This document shows positions 120 to 34,363 of a stretch of DNA of 43,475 bases, in pieces. The notes below the pieces were generated by a model. It worked only from the letters and a program-made list of their open reading frames with translations, was not told where the DNA came from and did not search any database. Position numbers and translations under genes: made by a program. This DNA comes from Spirochaetota bacterium (GTDB lineage: Bacteria; Spirochaetota; GWE2-31-10), in assembly GCA_022361115.1 (NCBI GenBank), contig JAKSBL010000286.1, forward strand, positions 1-43,475. The letters run 5' to 3'. Position 1 is the stretch's first letter. Every line of letters begins with the position of its first letter.

Positions 120-1997
120 ATGAAGTTAAAATATAGTTTTATCAGCACGATATTCATCTTATTAATGCTGTTTTCCTGTTCTTTTAACTCAACCAATGGA
201 AATAAAACAAACCAATCTGATAATCATACTAAAGGATTAGAGAATTTAAAGCAGTCTTCCAGAATGCCTGGTGGTTTTAAAGTTGTTGGTTATATGCCTT
301 CCTGGAGTGGAGATGTCAATCAAATTCAATATGATAAATTAACTCATATCAATTATGCTTTTATACTACCTACTGCTTCCGGGGGAATCCAAGCTGTGGA
401 AAATCCTGCAAAATTAGAATCCTTAGTTTCTCTGGCTCATGCCAGTGGAGTTAAAGTGCTCATTGCTGTTGGGGGATGGAATAATGGTAATGATAGTGCA
501 TTTGAAACTTTGGCAGCCAATGCACAAACACGAACAACTTTTGTTAATAATTTAATGAATTTTGTCCATACTTATAATTTAGATGGTGTTGATATGGATT
601 GGGAATATCCAGATCCAGGTAATTCTGCTACAAATTATGCTCTTTTGATGGATGAACTAGGCCAAAGTCTGCATAGCGAAGGAAAACTCTTAACCGCAGC
701 TGTTGTTGCTTTAGGCTATACAGGAGGCGGGGTTTTAACAGAAGTATTTGACGATGTGGATTTTTTAAACTTAATGGCTTATGATGGAGGAAATGGTGCA
801 GATCATTCTCCTTATAGTTATGCAGTTGAGTCTTTGAACTATTGGAAAGGAAGAGGATTACCTGCAAGTAAAGCTGTAATTGGTGTCCCTTTTTATGGAA
901 GACCAAGCTGGGAATCCTATCGAGCAATCGTTGCTAGAGATCCGGATGCACCAAATAAAGATATTTCTAATGGTGTTTATTACAATGGTATTGCAACAGT
1001 CAAAGCAAAAACCAATCTTGCTTTAGAGCAGGCTGGTGGAATAATGATGTGGGAGTTAAGCCAGGATACTACAGATCATACTTCACTGTTAACTGCCATG
1101 AGTGAAGCAATCCATGGCGGTAATATTTCTCCGGCAGTGAGTGTCACCAGCCCAGCTGATGGAGCACATTTTGCTGAGAATTCCAATATTACTATTACTG
1201 CTGATGCTAATGATAGTGACGGATCGATATCTCAAGTTGAGTTTTTTCAGGGCTCTGTTTTTCTAGGAGTGGATTATTCTGCACCTTATAGTGTAATCTG
1301 GAATAATGTGAGTGAAGGAACTTATACCATTTCAGCTGTTGCTACTGATAATGAAGGGGCTACTGGAACTTCCGGGATCATAACGATATATGTAGGGGAA
1401 TCCAACCCGGGGATACCTGCCTGGGATAGCTCAGAAACCTACTTAAAGGATGATGTAGTAACTCACAATGGCCGCAAATGGCGAGCCAGATGGTGGACCC
1501 AGGGTGAAGAACCTGGTACAACCGGTGAATGGGGTGTTTGGGAAGATCTGGGACCGATTGGTACCCCATCCAATAATCCTCCCAGTATCAGTATTGTCAG
1601 CCCTGCAAATGACAGCAGCTTTGCTGAAAATTCCAATATTACTATCGAAGCTAATGCCGGTGACAGTGATGGTACAATCAGTAGTGTTGAGTTTTTTCAA
1701 AATGGTAATTCTTTAGGCAGTACAACTTCCGCTCCCTATAGTATGACCTGGACTAATGTCGGAGCCGGATCATATACTCTTACTGCAGTAGCGACAGATG
1801 ATGATGGTGCTTCCACAACATCTGGTTCTATTTCTATAACAGTTGGTTCTAGCGGAACTGATACCTGGGCTCCTGGAGTCTATTATGAACTGGGTGATCA
1901 GGTGGTTTACGGCGGGAGAACCTGGACTTGTGTATATGCTCATACTTCCAATGCCTCCTGGTATCCTGGTGCACCAGGCTTATGGTTTTGGGAATAA
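120..1997 (+). CDS. GH18 chitinase lipoprotein with two Ig-like domains and two CBM5/12-type modules
   Basis: Lipobox-like LLMLFSC; GH18 catalytic motif DGVDMDWEYP; repeated SPADGAHFAENSNITI / SPANDSSFAENSNITI Ig-like modules; W-rich CBM5/12 modules (AWDSSETYLKDDVVTHNGRKWRARWWTQGEEPG and the C-terminus). SD AAAGGAG upstream. Confidence 0.93.
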   Translation: MKLKYSFISTIFILLMLFSCSFNSTNGNKTNQSDNHTKGLENLKQSSRMPGGFKVVGYMPSWSGDVNQIQYDKLTHINYAFILPTASGGIQAVENPAKLESLVSLAHASGVKVLIAVGGWNNGNDSAFETLAANAQTRTTFVNNLMNFVHTYNLDGVDMDWEYPDPGNSATNYALLMDELGQSLHSEGKLLTAAVVALGYTGGGVLTEVFDDVDFLNLMAYDGGNGADHSPYSYAVESLNYWKGRGLPASKAVIGVPFYGRPSWESYRAIVARDPDAPNKDISNGVYYNGIATVKAKTNLALEQAGGIMMWELSQDTTDHTSLLTAMSEAIHGGNISPAVSVTSPADGAHFAENSNITITADANDSDGSISQVEFFQGSVFLGVDYSAPYSVIWNNVSEGTYTISAVATDNEGATGTSGIITIYVGESNPGIPAWDSSETYLKDDVVTHNGRKWRARWWTQGEEPGTTGEWGVWEDLGPIGTPSNNPPSISIVSPANDSSFAENSNITIEANAGDSDGTISSVEFFQNGNSLGSTTSAPYSMTWTNVGAGSYTLTAVATDDDGASTTSGSISITVGSSGTDTWAPGVYYELGDQVVYGGRTWTCVYAHTSNASWYPGAPGLWFWE

Positions 1998-2022
1998 ATG
2001 AATAAAAAAGTAACTTAAAAAC

Positions 2023-2068
2023 AAAAGGAGGTTGCTTCATTGTTTTGAAAACACCTCCTTTTTTATTT
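2023..2068 (+). terminator. Rho-independent terminator after chitinase
   Basis: Perfect 10-bp arms AAAAGGAGGT (2023-2032) / ACCTCCTTTT (2053-2062) followed by a T-run. Confidence 0.8.
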
Positions 2069-2358
2069 TTATGAAATCATTAAAAATAATATAAAAGACT
2101 GTGATTAGATTCTAATATTAAAAACTTTAGTCGTAACCAATAGCATAATTATCGCTCCAACTAGTAATAATAAATTAAATACAATATACAATTCATCACT
2201 AACCATGAAAAATATACCAGATAATGTGTACTCTGAAATTTAAAATCCTTTTGTAATATCAAAATTTAAATAAATTTTGCAAATAAATATCAAACTTTTA
2301 CTCCTCCTGTCATTTTTATAGCACTTTTTTTCATTAATATTTATAGAAGGGAGTATTA

Positions 2359-3954
2359 ATGAAAAAAATCACATTATTCATTAGTAAAAAGAGCCGGCAA
2401 ATCACCTTTCCAGTTTTATGTCTTCTCTTTTTAATGTTAATCAGTTTTGGGCATACAAAAAAAATTTTCATTTTTATTCCATTAATCCTCCTGATCTTGA
2501 TTTATGGGATTTGTATGACATGGATTACAAAAAAAACTAAGTTTCTCCTATTAGTTTTGCTATTGATTTTGATTCTTACAGCCTATTGGTTTCGCTTAGT
2601 CAGAATGGAAAAGCATTACCAATTCAGTAAGAAACAGGTTTTTAACAGCTCTATGGTATTTGGTCAAGTAATATCTTTTCCCCAAAGAAAAAAAATGAAT
2701 ACGCATTTTATGATGAAAGTGCTCGCTGTAAAAAAAGATACCAATACAGATTATCAAAGAATTGAACCTTTTCATATTTTAGTTAAAGGAAAAGAAATCC
2801 AGGTTGAAAAAGGGGATTATCTTTGTATTGAGAAAAACCTTTATCTCCCTGTGAAAAAAATTGGGAATTTTGGGTACCGGCAATATTTAAGAAACAAAAA
2901 TATTTATGCAATGGTTCAATTAAAAAATAATCAATATAGAAAGATTTTTAATAATAGTTATCAAAACATTGAATTAAAAACAGGAAATCAATTTAGAACC
3001 CAGATTATCAGCAAACTGCGAAGTCATTTAAGAGTTGAAGCCTACAGTTTTTTGCTTTCTATTTTTTTTGGAGAAAAGGGAGAGCTGGATAAAGATTTAT
3101 TTCTTGCCTATAAAAATACAGGCATGATTCATTTATTGGCGATTAGTGGCTTACATATTAGTTTTATTGGATTACTTTTTTTTAAGTTTTTTCATTTATT
3201 GTTGTCCAGAAGTAAATCCTTTATGCTTAGTTTACTGGTTTTATTTGGGTATCTCACCTGGATTCAGCCAGCAGCTTCGAACCAGCGAGCTTTTTTAATG
3301 TATGCAATTCAAGGGCTTTATTTACTTTTAAACAGAAAAACCACTGGTCTGACCGTTTTATCTTTTGCTGGTATTTGTCTTTTATTTTTTCGGCCCTTGT
3401 ACCTATTTGATCTGGGATTTCAGTTTTCTTTTTTAGCTACAGCAGGTATTTTGATATTTGCTCAACCCCTTCAGTATTATCTTGAGAAAAAAATGTGTCG
3501 GCTGAATTGGGGCATATTATATCCTTTAGTATTAAAAGCAATCAAAGGATTTAGTGTTAGCGGATCGGCTTTTGCTGCAATTGTTAGTTTACAATGGATT
3601 TACTTTCAGCAAATTCCCTTTTTCTCATTACTGAGTTCCCTAATAATGGTTCCGCTTTTTAGTATACTATTTACCTTCTTATTTTATCTTTTGCTATTGG
3701 TAATTTTTATACCCCATTGGTTTTTGTTTCAACTGATGGATTGGTCTGTCTTCATTTTTAATCAATGCATTTTACTTTTAGATCATATACCAGCTTGCCG
3801 GATGCCTTTACTTCCGCCTACAGTCAGTCTTTTAATATATATTTTTTTCCTAGTGAGTATCAGGTTTTGTTTAAAGTTAATTGATAAAATGGGTTCTAAT
3901 TTAAAGAAAAGAAAACTTGAGAGTCAATTAAATAATATTCGATTAAGATCATAA
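2359..3954 (+). CDS. comEC: ComEC/Rec2-family competence membrane protein
   Basis: Polytopic membrane protein with the ComEC core MIHLLAISGLHISFIGLL and DLGFQFSFLATAGI; ends after the TM region with no metallo-beta-lactamase domain. Confidence 0.85.
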   Translation: MKKITLFISKKSRQITFPVLCLLFLMLISFGHTKKIFIFIPLILLILIYGICMTWITKKTKFLLLVLLLILILTAYWFRLVRMEKHYQFSKKQVFNSSMVFGQVISFPQRKKMNTHFMMKVLAVKKDTNTDYQRIEPFHILVKGKEIQVEKGDYLCIEKNLYLPVKKIGNFGYRQYLRNKNIYAMVQLKNNQYRKIFNNSYQNIELKTGNQFRTQIISKLRSHLRVEAYSFLLSIFFGEKGELDKDLFLAYKNTGMIHLLAISGLHISFIGLLFFKFFHLLLSRSKSFMLSLLVLFGYLTWIQPAASNQRAFLMYAIQGLYLLLNRKTTGLTVLSFAGICLLFFRPLYLFDLGFQFSFLATAGILIFAQPLQYYLEKKMCRLNWGILYPLVLKAIKGFSVSGSAFAAIVSLQWIYFQQIPFFSLLSSLIMVPLFSILFTFLFYLLLLVIFIPHWFLFQLMDWSVFIFNQCILLLDHIPACRMPLLPPTVSLLIYIFFLVSIRFCLKLIDKMGSNLKKRKLESQLNNIRLRS

Positions 3955-4047: not shown

Positions 4048-6129
4048 TTAATGGATAGACAAAGTATAAATATTAGAATTTAAATCTATAAAATAAAGTA
4101 CATTTCCTAATTTTAGTGGCGTACATATTAAAGGGTTATTTGATTGGTTTCCTGGTATTTTTAAAAATCTTGTCTCAGTTGTTTTTAAATCATATGAAAA
4201 TAACTTGCCTTTATCCGAGCAGTAATAAATGCTATTTTCAAATAAAACTGGTTTTTTAACAAGGTAATTGTTGGAGTCAGGATTTTTATCTACTTGGATA
4301 ATAAATTGGGGGAGATCAAATGAGTTGCTGTTTAATTTATAGAATACACCATCATTTCCAATGAAATAGCAAAATGGTTTATGATAAATGATTTCTGAGA
4401 CAACTCCTGCAGGTAATTTTAAAGTTATTGAATTCTGATCATTAAAAGTGGTATCAAAACGATAAATGTTTTCAATACTATCTGCAATGAAAATATAGTT
4501 ATTTGCAAATACAGGTTTCATAAATGCCCTATGCTTTAATGGTGTAGATTGATGGGTAACAATGTTTTTATTTAAATTGTACATTGCTAATTTTTTTGAA
4601 TTAATATTATAGAAGTATAAAATATTGGGTTTTGCTTTTGTAATATATAACTGTCCACTCGTATTAAATATATTATTTGTTTTTTCCAGGCTATTTCCCT
4701 TTAGTATGTATAGAATATCATTTGCTGGAATCAGCAAGCTATCATTGTGAATTTCTGGTTTAGCCCAGTATACAGGACCATCATTGATATTTAAAAGTTT
4801 TAATAATTTTCCTTGCTTAGAAATAATAAAAACATGATTTGAAGTGCTGATTATTAAATTTTTTTGATAGATAAGGGCCGGGGAAGTTAATTTAGAGATT
4901 AAGTGGTGAGTAAATTTCCAAAGTAATTTACCGCTCTTTATGTCAACAGCAGTTAGAGATTTATTAGAATCACTAGTGATATAAATATTATTATTATCAA
5001 TTGCTAAAGATGTTTCTTTTTCATCAAGTTGTAATTGAGGATTAAATGGCAATTTACGAATTATTACCTCTTTTTTTCCTTCCTCTTCATTGTTATGAGT
5101 ACTTTCTATTCTCTGATCAATTGTTTTTTCAGTATTACTATTTGAGACTTGTTTATTATTTTCATCTTTATCATGAGATAGTGGAATGATCAGAGCCTGA
5201 TAACTTTTTTTTAATTGAAAAAGCTTTTTATCCAATTCAGCCATAATCTTTTTTTGTGTATCGGGATCATTTTGATTAGAAAAGTCAATGTTTTTGATAA
5301 ATAGTATTGTTTCCTTTAGCATAATATCAAATTTTTTCACATCACTGCTATTAATAATGATGCTTTGATCCTTAGTTAAAACGACTTTCTCATTGATAAT
5401 TTTGTTAATCTGACTATAGAGATTTTTTTTTAATAGTTCTTTTTGTATAGATTGATCAAGATTAGGCTTTATCCAGATTTTTCCTTCTATTACAGTAATA
5501 GTTGTTTCATCTATTGATTTATTAACTTCAAATTCTGTTCCAATAACATTGATGATCAATTCAGTTGTTGTTATTTTAAATAATGAACCTTTGATAAGTT
5601 TAGCTAGTCTGACCTTAATCATTCCCTTTTTTAGATAAAATGAATTATTAATTATTTTTTTATTTTTTTTCAAACGATTAATTTTTATCTCTGACAGCTG
5701 ATTTAATTCCAACCTTGATTTTTTATCAATTTCTAATTGAATTTGTGAATCATTTTCAGTATAAACTGAAGTTTTTTCTTTGATAATATCGTCTTGATGT
5801 AGTAAATATTTTTTACCCTTTACTATTTTGTAAGCTTTACCATCGATTTTTATTACCTTACACATTGAATAAAATCGATGGTAAAGAAAGGTATTTCTGC
5901 CAATTAATAAACCAATAAGTAAAATAATAATAATTGTAAAACTGAAAACAAACTGGAAAACTAGTGTTTTTCGTTGTGCTTTCTCAGACTCATGATCAAA
6001 ACGTTTTGTCATATACTTCAGTTTTATTTTTAAATTTTCAGGCATTTCATCTAAAGCTGTCTGGTTATTTAAAAGAAAATCAAGAGTTTTATCATCTAAT
6101 TTATCAATCCAGTCTTTTTTTGAAATCAT
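4048..6129 (-). CDS. Anti-sigma-like single-TM protein with FecR domain and C-terminal PQQ-type beta-propeller
   Basis: Cytoplasmic N-terminus, one TM (FVFSFTIIIILLIGLLIG), FecR-like LKKGMIKVRLAK..FKITTTELIINVIGTEFEV..TITVIEGKIWIKP, then PQQ-like repeats (LTAVDIKSGKLLWKFTHHLISKLTSPALIYQKNLIIS). Starts 4 nt inside the ECF sigma gene. Confidence 0.8.
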   Translation of the reverse strand: MISKKDWIDKLDDKTLDFLLNNQTALDEMPENLKIKLKYMTKRFDHESEKAQRKTLVFQFVFSFTIIIILLIGLLIGRNTFLYHRFYSMCKVIKIDGKAYKIVKGKKYLLHQDDIIKEKTSVYTENDSQIQLEIDKKSRLELNQLSEIKINRLKKNKKIINNSFYLKKGMIKVRLAKLIKGSLFKITTTELIINVIGTEFEVNKSIDETTITVIEGKIWIKPNLDQSIQKELLKKNLYSQINKIINEKVVLTKDQSIIINSSDVKKFDIMLKETILFIKNIDFSNQNDPDTQKKIMAELDKKLFQLKKSYQALIIPLSHDKDENNKQVSNSNTEKTIDQRIESTHNNEEEGKKEVIIRKLPFNPQLQLDEKETSLAIDNNNIYITSDSNKSLTAVDIKSGKLLWKFTHHLISKLTSPALIYQKNLIISTSNHVFIISKQGKLLKLLNINDGPVYWAKPEIHNDSLLIPANDILYILKGNSLEKTNNIFNTSGQLYITKAKPNILYFYNINSKKLAMYNLNKNIVTHQSTPLKHRAFMKPVFANNYIFIADSIENIYRFDTTFNDQNSITLKLPAGVVSEIIYHKPFCYFIGNDGVFYKLNSNSFDLPQFIIQVDKNPDSNNYLVKKPVLFENSIYYCSDKGKLFSYDLKTTETRFLKIPGNQSNNPLICTPLKLGNVLYFIDLNSNIYTLSIH

Positions 6130-10228: not shown

Positions 10229-12832
10229 ATGACAATCAGAGAACATGCAGATCAAACAGAAAAGAAATTTGGTATCCGGGCAGTTGATATTCATAAATGG
10301 ATAGATGGATTTTTTGATGCAGAAAGTTTTGAGTTATTTATCAAAGGAAAAACAGGAGTTGATTTTAATCCCTATGAACATCGCAGATATCGTCATTGCC
10401 GGGAAGCATTAAAAGAGGCTTATCAGGAATTCCAGTCGAAATATAGTAAGGATCAGATTAAAGCAGTATTTGAATCTCACTTAAAGGATGATTATAACGG
10501 ATATATCCCTTGCCGCAATGATTTCGAAAATGGCCTGTTTCGGGAAAAATATCATGAAAGAGGGGATTTTCAGGATAAAGTCCTGACTTCAGTTGAATTA
10601 TCTGAATATTTCAAGGGTAAAAATTATCAAATTTCAAATAAAAATAAACAGAAAACAGATTTTAAATTTTTACTGCGGATTATTCTTCCTGTTTTAATCG
10701 CTTTGGTATTATTTTTAGGAACAGGTTTAATTTTCATCATTCCGGTTTATTATGATATTATGATGAATAATAAAAAAATCCTGATTAAAGAACTGGTCAA
10801 TACAGCTGCCAGTTCTATAAGTTATTATATACAAGAAGAAAAAAATCATAATTTGACCAGGCAGGAAGCCCAAAAAATGGCTCACTTAGAAGTAGAAAAA
10901 ATGCGTTATGGAGTTGATGGAAAAGATTACTTTTTTATAACGGACATGCACCCTTTTATGATTATGCATCCCTATCGAAATGATTTGGTAGGTGAGGATT
11001 TAAATCATTACAAAGACAGTGAAGATAAAAGCGGGAAAAAAATCTTTGTAGAGTTTGTTAAAATTGTGAAAAATTATCAGGAAGGCTATCTTGAGTATTG
11101 CTGGCAATGGATGGATGATACAGATCAAAAAGCATTAAAACTATCTTATGTGAAGGGTATTCCTGAATGGAACTGGATAATAGGAACCGGTATTTATATT
11201 AACGATATAGAAGAAGAAATTAATGCATTTACTGATAAATTACTTCTTGTTTTTAGTATTATCTCTTTAATGATTTGCTTGGCTCTCTTTTATGTCATCA
11301 TGCAGAGTAAAAAAATTGAAACAAATCGGCAATACTTTGAACTCGGTTTAATTGAAGCAAAAAATCGGTACCGGGCATTAGTTGAATCTGCCAATGAAGG
11401 TTATATTCTGGAAATCGGCGGAGAGCATGTTTATTCCAACCATACTTTACAACGTTTGTTAGACTATAATGAAGAAGAATTGACTGAGCTAAAACTTTTT
11501 GATTTATTAGATAAAGTCTATCCTGCTAATTTAGATCCCAAAGAATATTTAACAAAATTATATCAGTCCTTTGTAGAGCCAAAAAAGTTTGAAGCCAGAT
11601 TAATAACGAAAGGGGGTTATCCAATTGATTTAATTATCAGTGTTTCTAATTTGTTTTTTTCTCAAAAAAATGGACATGTTATTTCGTTTAGAGAAAAGCA
11701 ACAAAATAAAGAACATATATTTTCCCGGTTAGCCCATTTCCCTTTATTAAAAAGCAGTTTTAATTCTAAGCAAGACCATTCTGTTTTAAATATCCAATCA
11801 ATAGTGAAAAATATAATAGAAAGCAATGAATCAACTCAGATAATCAAGTTATTAAACCAGCTGCCTCAACAGGTTTCTCATATGCTGAATACAGGGTTAG
11901 ATCCCCAAATCATTAGAAGTTATGTGAATGAGAGCTATCAAGCAGCAAGTCAAAAATTTATAGAAATAGCAGTCAAAGCATTGGGACAACCACCAGTAAA
12001 ATTTTGTTTTTTTGCCTTAGGCAGTAGTGCAAGAGGAGAAATGACTCTGTTTTCTGATCAGGATAATGCTCTGGTCTATCAGGATGTTTCTGTAGCAAAT
12101 AAAAATGAAGTTGAAAAGTATTTTTTAAAGTTGTCATCTAATGTTAATCAAAATTTAGATCAAGCAGGGTTTCATATTTGTCCAGGTGGATTAGTTGCTT
12201 CAAACAGCAAGTGGTGTTTAACCCTCTCTCATTGGCAAGCCTTGTTTCAAGACTGGTTTGAAGCAATGAATCCTGAGGCTTTTTTAAAAATTAATGTTTT
12301 TGCAGATACAAAATATGTTTATGGTAACCAGGAACTATTAATCAATCTGCAGGAAAATTTTAGAAATTATTCTCAAAATAATACCCCTTTTTTTAATCTT
12401 TATGTGAATAATTCCTTACTTTATAAAGTCCCTATGAATTTATTAGGGGGAATCAAAACAGATAAAAAAAAAAAAAAAAAAAATATCAATATTAAAGCCT
12501 GTTTAAAACCATTGGAAATTGGTTCCAGGATTTATGCATTAAAAAATGAAATCACCGCAACCAGCACAAGCGACCGTTTATATGCATTGCTGAACAAGAA
12601 AAAAATCTCATCTAATCTTTATCAAAATAGCATCTATGCTTTTTATTATCTCTGGAATTTGCGATTTTATAATCAAATTATTTTGAATGCTGATCTGGAG
12701 AAATTAAATGATGAACTGGATTTAAGTCGGCTTTCTGAAATTGAAGTTGAGAATTTAAAAACAGTTCTAAATCAAATTCAGAATTTTCAAAACAGGTTAA
12801 ATAGTGATTTTATTGGCAGAGTAAGAATATAA
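10229..12832 (+). CDS. Membrane sensor protein: sCache-like domain, PAS domain, DUF294-type (GlnD-like) nucleotidyltransferase and C-terminal substrate-binding region
   Basis: TM segments flank a Cache-like region (MRYGVDGKDYFFITDMHPFMIMHPYRNDLVG..GIPEWNWIIGTGIYI); PAS-like ALVESANEGYILEIGGEHVYSNHTLQRLLDYNEEEL; NTase motif ALGSSARGEMTLFSDQDNALVY; DUF294_C-like tail. Confidence 0.8.
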   Translation: MTIREHADQTEKKFGIRAVDIHKWIDGFFDAESFELFIKGKTGVDFNPYEHRRYRHCREALKEAYQEFQSKYSKDQIKAVFESHLKDDYNGYIPCRNDFENGLFREKYHERGDFQDKVLTSVELSEYFKGKNYQISNKNKQKTDFKFLLRIILPVLIALVLFLGTGLIFIIPVYYDIMMNNKKILIKELVNTAASSISYYIQEEKNHNLTRQEAQKMAHLEVEKMRYGVDGKDYFFITDMHPFMIMHPYRNDLVGEDLNHYKDSEDKSGKKIFVEFVKIVKNYQEGYLEYCWQWMDDTDQKALKLSYVKGIPEWNWIIGTGIYINDIEEEINAFTDKLLLVFSIISLMICLALFYVIMQSKKIETNRQYFELGLIEAKNRYRALVESANEGYILEIGGEHVYSNHTLQRLLDYNEEELTELKLFDLLDKVYPANLDPKEYLTKLYQSFVEPKKFEARLITKGGYPIDLIISVSNLFFSQKNGHVISFREKQQNKEHIFSRLAHFPLLKSSFNSKQDHSVLNIQSIVKNIIESNESTQIIKLLNQLPQQVSHMLNTGLDPQIIRSYVNESYQAASQKFIEIAVKALGQPPVKFCFFALGSSARGEMTLFSDQDNALVYQDVSVANKNEVEKYFLKLSSNVNQNLDQAGFHICPGGLVASNSKWCLTLSHWQALFQDWFEAMNPEAFLKINVFADTKYVYGNQELLINLQENFRNYSQNNTPFFNLYVNNSLLYKVPMNLLGGIKTDKKKKKKNINIKACLKPLEIGSRIYALKNEITATSTSDRLYALLNKKKISSNLYQNSIYAFYYLWNLRFYNQIILNADLEKLNDELDLSRLSEIEVENLKTVLNQIQNFQNRLNSDFIGRVRI
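12464..12483 (+). repeat. A20 homopolymer inside a CDS
   Basis: Twenty consecutive A, encoding TDKKKKKKN. Confidence 0.95.
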
Positions 12833-29216: not shown

Positions 29217-30905
29217 ATCTTTGTCTCCTGTTTTTGCAAGAACTGTAGTGATTTTGAAACAATAATCTCCAATATGTTCTAAGTGTTTTAAAATATCCAG
29301 GAAAATCATTTCACCCTTAATATCTGCACCCTGAGAGATGTTTTTTCGGCTGGTTTTCTTTAGTGTTTTTTTCTTTTCATCAATTTCATTTTCCATTTCT
29401 GCGGCAATACTCACATCAGGATATACAGATCTTCTCTGTAAATGATCTGAAATAAAGTTAATAAAGTCTAGTATTTCATAAGTATAATTTTCTATTTCTG
29501 TATTCGCATTTTTGTGAAATTTTAACTTCTTTCTTAACTTTTTATCTAATTGCTCATAAAGGGCTCGAATCGTTTTAGTCATTAGATCTAATTCAAAAAG
29601 TATCATTAAATTGGAAGAAATTAACAGGGCTTCTGGTTCACTCAATGATTCTGTTGTAACATCAACAATTGATTTGGTGATATCATCCCGCCTGGTTTTT
29701 AGTTTTCTATACATTCCTAACATTGTTTCATTTAAATCTTCCAATTCATTTTCATCAAAAGTTAATGCATTGATAAAATTCAGCAATAATCCATGATTTG
29801 ATAATGAAATTTCAGATATTTCATGATTGATATTAATGATTTTTACATCTGAAGAATGAGGAATGATGTTTAAAGTGTAGGGAGTGGATAAAATAGTCTT
29901 TTTATCTGGATATTTTTCCGGCCAAATCTTTACTAAAAGATCTTTAAAGTGGTTTACAAACCATACAAGGAGTAATACATTTACTACATTGAAAAAGGTA
30001 TGAAATGCTGATAAATGAAAAGGCAAATTAGCAGGATTATGAATACTTCCAGGGACGATCAGATCAATCATCCGGGTAAAGGGATAAAACAGGAGAACCA
30101 TCCAGAGAGTCCCAAAAATATTAATTAGCAAATGGGCAAAAGCTGATCGTTTTGCATTAGTTACCATCTGAATGGAGGCAATAATTGCAGTAATGGTTGT
30201 TCCTAAATTGGCTCCCAGGACAATGGCACAGGCAATATTGTAATCAATCCATCCTTTATAAGCTAAGGTAATGGTAATGGCTGATGTAGCACTTGATGAT
30301 TGTATAATAATGGTTAATAAAGCTCCAATGAGAATAAAAATAATGATGGATAAGTATCCTTGAGAAGTAAATAAGGTGAGAAATTCTAAAGCATGAGCAT
30401 ATTTATGGATATCTGGTAATTGATCTTTTAAAATGGACAAGCCAAGAAATAATAATCCAAAACCAAAGAAAAATTCTCCGATATTTCGCTGTGTACTTTT
30501 GGCACTAAATGACAAAGGGAGGCTGATTGCAATAAAAGGAAGAGTAAAATACATAATATCCATTTTAAAACCAAAAAAGGAAATGACCCAAGCGGTAAAT
30601 GTTGTTCCTATATTAGCGCCCAGTATCACATTGATAGCCTGTATTAAAGAAATCAATCCTGCATTTACCAAACTAACCAGAATAACAGTGGTGGCAGAAG
30701 AGGATTGGATAACAGATGTAAAAATAACTCCGGTTAAAATCCCGCTCAAGCGGTTTTTACTGATGAAATAGAGTGCTCTTTTTAAACGGTTCCCACTAGA
30801 TAATTGTAAACCAGTACTCATGATTCGCATGCCGAACAAAAAAAGGCCTAAACCACCAATGATGTAAATGATTTGCAGGAGTATTAAAAGTATATTAATG
30901 ATCAT
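29199..30905 (-). CDS. Na+/phosphate cotransporter family protein with PhoU-like C-terminus
   Basis: GLGLFLFGMRIMSTGLQ; duplicated QSSSATT/QSSSATSA motifs; NVILGANIGTTFTA / ALVLGANLGTT-type repeats. Confidence 0.93.
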   Translation of the reverse strand: MIINILLILLQIIYIIGGLGLFLFGMRIMSTGLQLSSGNRLKRALYFISKNRLSGILTGVIFTSVIQSSSATTVILVSLVNAGLISLIQAINVILGANIGTTFTAWVISFFGFKMDIMYFTLPFIAISLPLSFSAKSTQRNIGEFFFGFGLLFLGLSILKDQLPDIHKYAHALEFLTLFTSQGYLSIIIFILIGALLTIIIQSSSATSAITITLAYKGWIDYNIACAIVLGANLGTTITAIIASIQMVTNAKRSAFAHLLINIFGTLWMVLLFYPFTRMIDLIVPGSIHNPANLPFHLSAFHTFFNVVNVLLLVWFVNHFKDLLVKIWPEKYPDKKTILSTPYTLNIIPHSSDVKIININHEISEISLSNHGLLLNFINALTFDENELEDLNETMLGMYRKLKTRRDDITKSIVDVTTESLSEPEALLISSNLMILFELDLMTKTIRALYEQLDKKLRKKLKFHKNANTEIENYTYEILDFINFISDHLQRRSVYPDVSIAAEMENEIDEKKKTLKKTSRKNISQGADIKGEMIFLDILKHLEHIGDYCFKITTVLAKTGDKDSVSPF

Positions 30906-31563
30906 GGTGTCCTTCTGATTGAAAAATGTATTTATCAGAACTATTGTTTTTAAGAAATTTACTCAGTTCTTTCCCTAAACCCGGCAATTTAAAATACTTA
31001 TCCAGCATATTGAGTTTATCACTAAATTTAATGGCTCCTGATAACTCAAAATAATTATGAGCTGTATGTTGATCAATAATAAAGGGCAATTTATTCTGGC
31101 TTAATAAGATATAGTTCATTAGCAAATTACCTGTACGGTGATTTCCTTCGATAAAAAGCTGGGGTTGACTGAGCTGACGAAAATAAAATCCACTAGCCAA
31201 TTTATATCCTTTTAAACTGTTTTCTTCATTCTGATACCATTTAAACAAATGGACAATATTTTTTTGATACTTTGTTCGGGTTGCCATAATATGGCTGTGA
31301 TATTCATACTTTTTCTTAAAATTAGCACCACAGAGGACAATATGATTAAACTCTAATAATGAATAGAGACCAGCTTTTGAAAATATTTTAATATTACTGC
31401 GCAATAGTTGATTCAGAAAACGATAGGCTTCCACAATATTGGTAACCATACACTCAGTCATATCTTCTCTTTTAATTGATAATTTTGAATTAATTTGGTC
31501 AAAATTTTTATAAACTGAAAATAATGATTTTTCTATTTCTTCTAAATTAAATAAATACTTCAT
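30895..31563 (-). CDS. Fic-domain-like protein with atypical active-site motif
   Basis: FRQLSQPQLFIEGNHRTGNLLMNYILLSQNKLPFII aligns with the Fic HPFx(D/E)GNGR region; His replaced by Gln. Confidence 0.7.
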   Translation of the reverse strand: MKYLFNLEEIEKSLFSVYKNFDQINSKLSIKREDMTECMVTNIVEAYRFLNQLLRSNIKIFSKAGLYSLLEFNHIVLCGANFKKKYEYHSHIMATRTKYQKNIVHLFKWYQNEENSLKGYKLASGFYFRQLSQPQLFIEGNHRTGNLLMNYILLSQNKLPFIIDQHTAHNYFELSGAIKFSDKLNMLDKYFKLPGLGKELSKFLKNNSSDKYIFQSEGHHDH

Positions 31564-32749: not shown

Positions 32750-32774
32750 TAAAAAAACCTCCCCAAAGGGAGAT
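32750..32774 (-). terminator. Terminator of the REC-SBP gene
   Basis: On the minus strand CTCCC TTTG GGGAG then GGTTTTTTT. Confidence 0.6.
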
Positions 32775-32816
32775 TTATCACATTTGAAAGATATAAAGAG
32801 TTAAAATAACAAATGA

Positions 32817-34199
32817 TTAGTCTTTTTTTGCTTCATTAGCAAATCGAAAATCGATAAATTTTTCCAGATCGATGATCTTGCCGATTTCCATTTTTTCATG
32901 CATATAGCGCTGCATTCGATCCAGGTCGTCAATAACCGGATAGAGATCATTTAAAGTAATACCCATGGGTTCTTCCAGTACATTTTTTAAAACCTCAACC
33001 GTTAAGCCCAGTTTTTTTTGGGGATCTAAAAAGTCAACTGCGATTTCAGCTGCAACAGATTTGTTTGAATCGGCAAATTTACCGCATTCTGTTAAGTATT
33101 GCGTAAACTCAAACATGGCATCCGGGAATTGATCAATAATTTCCTGCCGCATAGCTACAATACAACATGGGTGATCTTTCCAGCGGGTTTTTGATAAAAA
33201 CTGGAGTTCTGCAATTCCTTTATTGATGGCATTTGACCCAATTGGTTCAGCAACAATAAAACCGGCAATTTCTTTATTCAACATCATACTTCGCGGCATT
33301 TGAATTGGCGGCACGACTTCAAAAGTAACATTGATTTCTGGATGTTCAGGGCCGGGAACACCAGGTTTTAAGCCTAATTCAGATAGAAATTCATGAGCCA
33401 GCATATTATGAATAGACATCTTATGAGGAATATTAACGATTTTATTCATATACGCCTCTCTCAATGATTCACTTTCTCTGATTTCTTTGTGTGTTGAGCG
33501 TACAAAAACACTGCCATTTTTATGTGCAAAGCTGATTAATTTAATAGGAACTTCATAGGCAAATAAATCCATGGCTATAGGAGCTAATACAAATGCACCA
33601 TCTATTGATTGGTTTTCAACTGCTTCAATAATAGGATTCCAGCCTGGCATACTTTGTGTGACTAAATCAAAATATTTTGGTTTTATTTCACCTTTAGCAA
33701 TGCGGTCTTTTAAAACGCCTAAAGCTAGGTGGTCTGTTATTTGAATGTGGCCAATTCTTAATTGCAATTTTCCATCAACAACAGAAGGAGCTTTAGCTGC
33801 TGGTTTTTCTTCTACTTCTTCTCCCAAAGCCTTTAATATAGCTGTTTTTAACTGATCTGCATTAAAGGGTTTTGCAATATGAGAATTCGCACCAGCATTG
33901 CGAGCTTCTTCAATTTTTGCTTTATCTCCCTGAGCTGTTGCCATAACAAAAGGGGTTTCTTTATACTGATCATTAGCCCGAGCCCATAGTAAGAGCTCTA
34001 ACCCATTTTTTTCCGGCATATTCCAGTCGCTAATTATCAGATCATATTTGGCTTCTTGCAATTTATCTATTCCATCTGCTCCGTCATTAGCAATGGTAAC
34101 CTCTTCTAATCCGATTTGTTTTAAATTGGAGAGAAATAGTTTTTTCATAAAACTGGAGTCTTCTGCAACCAGGACTTTTAACTTAGCATTTAAATCCAT
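32817..34199 (-). CDS. Response-regulator receiver domain fused to an NrtA/SsuA/ThiY-type substrate-binding domain
   Basis: CheY-like VLVAEDSSFMKKL..LIISDWNMPEKNGLELL..MATAQGD..AKPF; after an Ala/Pro-rich linker, LRIGHIQITDHLALGVLKDRIAKGEI..WNPIIEAVENQSIDGAFVLAPIAM typical of NMT1/NrtA-like SBPs; no signal peptide. Confidence 0.88.
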   Translation of the reverse strand: MDLNAKLKVLVAEDSSFMKKLFLSNLKQIGLEEVTIANDGADGIDKLQEAKYDLIISDWNMPEKNGLELLLWARANDQYKETPFVMATAQGDKAKIEEARNAGANSHIAKPFNADQLKTAILKALGEEVEEKPAAKAPSVVDGKLQLRIGHIQITDHLALGVLKDRIAKGEIKPKYFDLVTQSMPGWNPIIEAVENQSIDGAFVLAPIAMDLFAYEVPIKLISFAHKNGSVFVRSTHKEIRESESLREAYMNKIVNIPHKMSIHNMLAHEFLSELGLKPGVPGPEHPEINVTFEVVPPIQMPRSMMLNKEIAGFIVAEPIGSNAINKGIAELQFLSKTRWKDHPCCIVAMRQEIIDQFPDAMFEFTQYLTECGKFADSNKSVAAEIAVDFLDPQKKLGLTVEVLKNVLEEPMGITLNDLYPVIDDLDRMQRYMHEKMEIGKIIDLEKFIDFRFANEAKKD

Positions 34200-34363
34200 T
34201 ATCTGCTCCTTATCATTACATTACAAGTGTACTTTTTTAAAGTATTGATTATATCTATATAAAAGTGTAGTTCAAAAAAAAAAAACAGTCAATACGGGAT
34301 TAGTAATTTATACTAATTCATAAAATAATTTGTGCTTTCCTTAAAATTTGGATTTAAACCTTA

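Follow-up and report, generated by a model that had tools for sequence, protein, structure and literature searches.

To our knowledge, chemotactic sensing through substrate-binding proteins (SBPs) occurs in the periplasm, via chemoreceptors. CheV is a coupling protein composed of CheW and a receiver, whose phosphorylation controls binding to some receptors; what CheV does, and what its phosphorylation contributes, is described as uncertain (PMC12691637). The regulatory domain of CmpC has been reported to sense cytosolic nitrate and so to release inhibition of the transporter (PMC13249358), and a putative nitrate site together with a role in ammonium inhibition have been described for NrtC (PMC6603209). 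As the CmpC domain is also a top fold match of the protein analyzed here, it offers a precedent for sensing by an SBP on the cytoplasmic side. That protein joins a receiver (REC) to an SBP, and it has homologues that additionally carry CheW. The component parts are all known, and in the open-access literature searched we found neither a receiver-SBP nor a receiver-SBP-CheW protein described. The initial, sequence-only reading of this DNA had considered that the fusion might be a widely described architecture; no such description turned up in that literature, although the fusion is conserved in many genomes. The features of the locus within the window (the whole stretch of 43,475 nucleotides that was analyzed) are as follows.

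34206..34210, (-) strand: Shine-Dalgarno-like AGGAG, six bases upstream of the REC-SBP start, read from the sequence
32817..34199, (-) strand: REC-SBP fusion gene, a single intact ORF of 460 aa with full-length homologues and an AF2 model at pLDDT 92.4
33837..34175, (-) strand: CheY-type receiver domain, residues 9-121 (PF00072, 8e-23, near full length)
34026..34028, (-) strand: predicted phospho-acceptor Asp58 (ISDWNMP), invariant in 31/31 receiver-bearing homologues
33768..33836, (-) strand: inter-domain linker, residues 122-144, between both Pfam matches and holding the lowest-pLDDT block of the model (71)
33039..33767, (-) strand: SBP domain (NMT1_2), residues 145-387 (PF13379, 1e-25, near full length), with fold matches to 3un6, the CmpC regulatory domain and NrtA
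33162..33173, (-) strand: HPCC motif of the SBP, residues 343-346, identical in 37/37 aligned family members
32820..33038, (-) strand: C-terminal helical part of the SBP, residues 388-460, from the alignment and the AF2 model
32755..32776, (-) strand: intrinsic terminator, a 9-pair stem with a T-rich tail, directly after the REC-SBP gene

The gene starts with ATG, its ORF contains neither a frameshift nor a chimeric junction, and the terminator lies 40 bp past its stop codon. A frameshift or assembly error joining two genes, as contemplated in the sequence-only reading, is ruled out by the full-length homologues, the structural model and the Lon comparison for the contig. The fusion is kept at full length in a genome of the same order (G006; 59% identity) and in about 30 genomes of Desulfobacterota (about 50-58% identity end to end), and AF2, supplied with 32 homologues, modeled the window protein with a pLDDT of 92.4 and a pTM of 0.88. 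The Lon protein encoded on the window contig shares 57-67% identity with Lon from the same order and at most 49% with that from the rest of the phylum, and the contig can therefore be regarded as native to its genome. A contaminant contig was excluded by the same Lon identities; the genome also contains matches to FlaA, a spirochaete flagellar sheath family (1.6e-60), which were found in none of 14 control genomes, and on this ground we regard the organism as a spirochaete.

The residues expected of a phosphorylatable receiver, claimed from the outset to include the acidic residues, the aspartate of ISDWNMP, a threonine and a lysine, are all present as E13/D14, D58, T88, and K110. Among 31 aligned receiver-bearing homologues, D14, D58, T88, and K110 are invariant in every one, and position 13 is either E or D. 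The best NCBIfam match of the receiver is CheY, and CheY structures are likewise its best matches in the PDB by both sequence and fold, at 38-39% identity. One position departs from this likeness: Tyr106 of CheY has a role in motor output, and the position equivalent to Tyr106 of E. coli CheY is occupied by His107 in the window protein and by H, V, or L across all 31 family receivers. Pfam detects no DNA-binding or enzymatic output domain in the window protein.

The second half of the protein is a complete SBP domain, as had been proposed, and NCBIfam and PDB searches place it among SsuA-type binding proteins. The best PDB match by both sequence and fold is 3un6, and the resemblance to the C-terminal domain of NrtC noted earlier is borne out by the fold, with 9uai, 9uak, and 8wm7_C within the top six matches. 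Ten residues are invariant in all 37 aligned SBPs, fused and standalone alike (D156, H157, W187, H226, S262, H264, E318, H343, C345, and C346); several of them are common to 3un6 and exported transport SBPs, the CC pair of the HPCC motif recurs in 3un6 and the exported relatives, and W187, H264, and E318 correspond in the alignment to W, H, and E of NrtC/CmpC. Judging from motif position, these residues probably line the pocket, and their conservation, shared in part with 3un6 and transport SBPs, suggests a working site. The fold gives several hints as to a ligand (zinc in 3un6, nitrate in the CmpC regulatory domain, as well as NrtA, TauA/SsuA, and thiamine-pyrimidine proteins), and the gene neighbors of exported relatives give others; the hints disagree. 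Exported relatives are encoded in ABC operons (L193, L194, and L035); by eye, the L193 operon adjoins an apparent carbon-monoxide dehydrogenase gene, and the L035 operon adjoins ThiG/ThiH-like genes.

The window protein has no export signal, since the receiver begins at residue 9, and no membrane helix, the highest 19-residue hydropathy being 1.47. The absence of a signal peptide thus stands as first described, and with a complete SBP and no export signal in the sequence, the accompanying idea that a ligand is sensed in the cytoplasm is plausible.

When homologues are compared, the family takes four forms: exported SBPs, standalone cytoplasmic SBPs, REC-SBP, and REC-SBP-CheW. The maximum-likelihood tree contains 7, 20, 16, and 30 rows of these, respectively, with the window protein among the 16 REC-SBP rows that have no CheW. 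The exported SBPs bear Tat or lipoprotein-like signals, and those read adjoin permease and ATPase genes. The standalone cytoplasmic SBPs are of about 304-316 aa and begin directly at the domain, a few gene-finder starts being longer. The REC-SBP-CheW proteins are of about 640-730 aa, with a linker and the CheW domain following the point that matches residues 388-460 of the window protein. The CheW domain of a homologue matches PF01584 at 2e-34 over 137 of 138 positions, and the AF2 model of one such protein (L072) shows three folded parts including CheW, with a disordered linker at 461-494 ahead of it.

In the tree, exported forms split from the rest (100/99) and all fused forms make up one group (100/100). 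The window protein pairs with that of G006 (100/95), beside 14 REC-SBP proteins of Desulfobacterota. A branch with the CheW forms to one side of it recurs in 78% of the bootstrap trees, which does not decide between loss of CheW in the window lineage and its gain elsewhere. Among 393 genomes from the window's phylum, the fusion is present in only 2 and the SBP subfamily in any form in 6; in a sample centered on Desulfobacterota, the corresponding figure is 24 of 395 genomes, a few with exported forms only. We infer, provisionally, a transfer of REC-SBP from Desulfobacterota into the window's order. A standalone cytoplasmic SBP is also present in 12 of 13 REC-SBP genomes and in none of the 11 REC-SBP-CheW genomes first searched (Fisher's p of about 1e-5, uncorrected for relatedness); two later CheW-form genomes have one. 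Directly upstream of REC-SBP, Desulfoluna-type loci carry an extra gene (L067 at 5053-5883, also L068, L070, L071, and L073), encoding a protein of 258-286 aa, or of 420 aa by the gene call in L070. Its similarity to NMT1_2 is weak (E 5e-4 in L067), and it is possibly a second cytoplasmic SBP-like partner.

At the window locus itself, the gene is flanked by acyltransferase and MFS/Atg22-like ORFs, with no permease or ATPase adjoining it and no che gene recognized in the window, and it shares no neighborhood with its orthologue in G006 beyond the gene itself. The genome has 15 CheW-domain and 30 MCP-domain matches, so that chemosensory partners exist in the host; long CheW-domain frames, taken to be its CheA proteins, lie on C167, C252, and C716. 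Elsewhere in the same genome (L101, contig C635), positions 504-3297 hold genes for a Tat-signal SsuA/SaoX-like binding protein, an ATPase, and a permease; this binding protein has 28% identity to the SBP domain of the fusion, and a CheD-like gene (4547-5032) lies two genes after the ABC genes. Two other proteins of the window may be mentioned: an 867-aa membrane protein (10229-12832), which by eye resembles a periplasmic sensor joined to a PAS and nucleotidyltransferase-like region, and one (30895-31563) with sub-threshold similarity to Fic/DOC (E 0.0026).

It is the family that provides the link to chemotaxis, a connection overlooked in the sequence-only reading. Its description of the gene as an orphan holds for the window locus, with no che gene, and fails for the family, in which CheW-bearing homologues and che operons were found. 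In G609 (L217/L219/L220), one run reads MCP-MCP-[REC-SBP-CheW]-MCP-CheR-CheB-CheA; it is preceded by a CheW gene and followed by genes for CheY-like, CheD, and HDOD proteins. At L065, a REC-SBP gene closes the series CheA-CheD-HDOD-CheX-CheB-CheD-[REC-SBP], and the opposite strand carries CheA-CheY-CheR-SBP. Shorter arrangements are CheX-CheY-SBP (L163), SBP-CheY (L170), CheY-like-SBP (L033/L098), CheY-[REC-SBP-CheW] (L203), MCP-[REC-SBP-CheW] (L207), and [REC-SBP-CheW]-CheX (L212). The family loci number some 67 and are related; about 9 have a che or MCP gene as an immediate neighbor, and the great majority are unlinked. This share exceeds a background of 2-3%, which is an assumed guess. HDOD genes recur beside REC-SBP-CheW (L072, L074, L075, L076, L077, L079, and L080) and also lie inside both che runs that hold a family member (L065 and L220).

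We favor, with fair rather than firm confidence, the view that the window protein is a soluble signaling protein of the chemotaxis type, made up of a phosphorylatable CheY-family receiver and a cytoplasmic SBP sensor, and that it probably conveys a chemical signal from inside the cell to bacterial navigation. The chemotactic input role is proposed because its relatives either end in CheW, a docking domain, or are encoded in chemotaxis operons. In this scheme, CheA would phosphorylate Asp58 and the SBP would close on a small cytoplasmic molecule, and the protein would therefore report the nutrient state inside the cell. Its action on the chemosensory system might be set jointly by the bound ligand and the phosphorylation, with ligand-dependent closure of the SBP modulating the lifetime of the phosphate or the binding of partners. 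In homologues that end in CheW, this domain would tether the protein directly to CheA and the receptors, in the manner of CheV. The window form has no CheW and would act via its receiver, conceivably as a ligand-tuned phosphate sink or a CheV-like adaptation factor, either role being likelier than binding to the flagellar motor.

A more specific version can be put forward tentatively, at somewhat less than even chance: the level of an imported metabolite might act directly on the CheA-receptor array via the cytoplasmic SBP of a CheV/CheY-type protein, in series with phosphorylation, and so constitute a receptor-independent input to chemotaxis. Were this the case, navigation would be adjusted to the internal supply of the sensed nutrient.

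The alternative that survives best, though we consider it unlikely, places the protein outside chemotaxis as an orphan two-component regulator, in which a histidine kinase other than a Che kinase phosphorylates the receiver and the SBP serves as a protein-interaction output, for example to tune an ABC transporter as in NrtC/CmpC. The lack of che genes at the window locus and the nearness of the fold to the NrtC/CmpC regulatory domains fit such a regulator, as do two loci of relatives: in G022 (contig C268, L097, 1896-3660), a signal-less standalone family SBP precedes the gene of an ABC ATPase, an arrangement recalling an NrtC regulatory domain in unfused form, and L064 has a receiver-HD gene and a hybrid kinase gene nearby. 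However, the CheW fusions and che operons of the family, and a receiver most like CheY, argue for chemotaxis instead. It seems highly doubtful that the SBP has lost ligand binding and persists as a structural spacer or dimerization module with signaling by the receiver alone, a view consistent with the missing signal peptide and the lack of a known ligand, but at odds with ten pocket-type residues that are invariant in 37/37 members and in several cases recur in 3un6 and in the exported SBPs of transporters. Similarly improbable is a motor effector of the CheY type, in which the receiver would bind the flagellar switch and the SBP would tune its affinity: CheY is the best receiver match and the family adjoins true CheY-like genes in L163, L170, and L203, but the CheY encoded beside the L163 member keeps Tyr at the Tyr106 position, whereas each of the 31 family receivers has His, Val, or Leu there; this disfavors a motor effector and favors a CheV-like or sink role.

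The chemotaxis-type reading can finally be set against the known systems. The family resembles CheV in the phosphorylatable receiver of the window protein, the CheW-like domain of the REC-SBP-CheW homologues, and, for some homologues but not at the window locus, placement in che operons. It differs in that Pfam finds no CheW domain in the window protein, whereas 30 homologues have one, and in domain order, since CheV places CheW before the receiver and REC-SBP-CheW has the receiver first, a full SBP between, and CheW last. With an SBP in this position, a CheV-like protein would have a ligand of its own, and REC-SBP-CheW makes the entry of an internal nutrient state into the array directly testable. 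With CheY the window protein shares the receiver type and the conserved phosphorylation residues, but it is not a single-domain protein, having a C-terminal SBP, and it has His at the Tyr106 position. The regulatory domains of NrtC/CmpC likewise present an SBP fold to the cytoplasm (ranked 2, 4, 5, and 6 by Foldseek) and share the alignable W, H, and E pocket positions; they are fused to an ABC ATPase rather than to a receiver, and the HPCC motif is absent from them. SBPs of the NitT/TauT type (SsuA, TauA, NrtA, and S. aureus 3un6) have the same fold and Pfam family, and exported relatives in Desulfobacterota retain the motifs PITDHL, AEPFG, and W..H.CC, as in the window family, but NitT/TauT-type proteins leave the cytoplasm by means of a Tat or lipoprotein signal and have their genes together with those of a permease and ATPase, whereas the window protein is cytoplasmic. 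The family offers a comparative series that runs from exported SBP through cytoplasmic SBP and SBP beside CheY to REC-SBP and REC-SBP-CheW.
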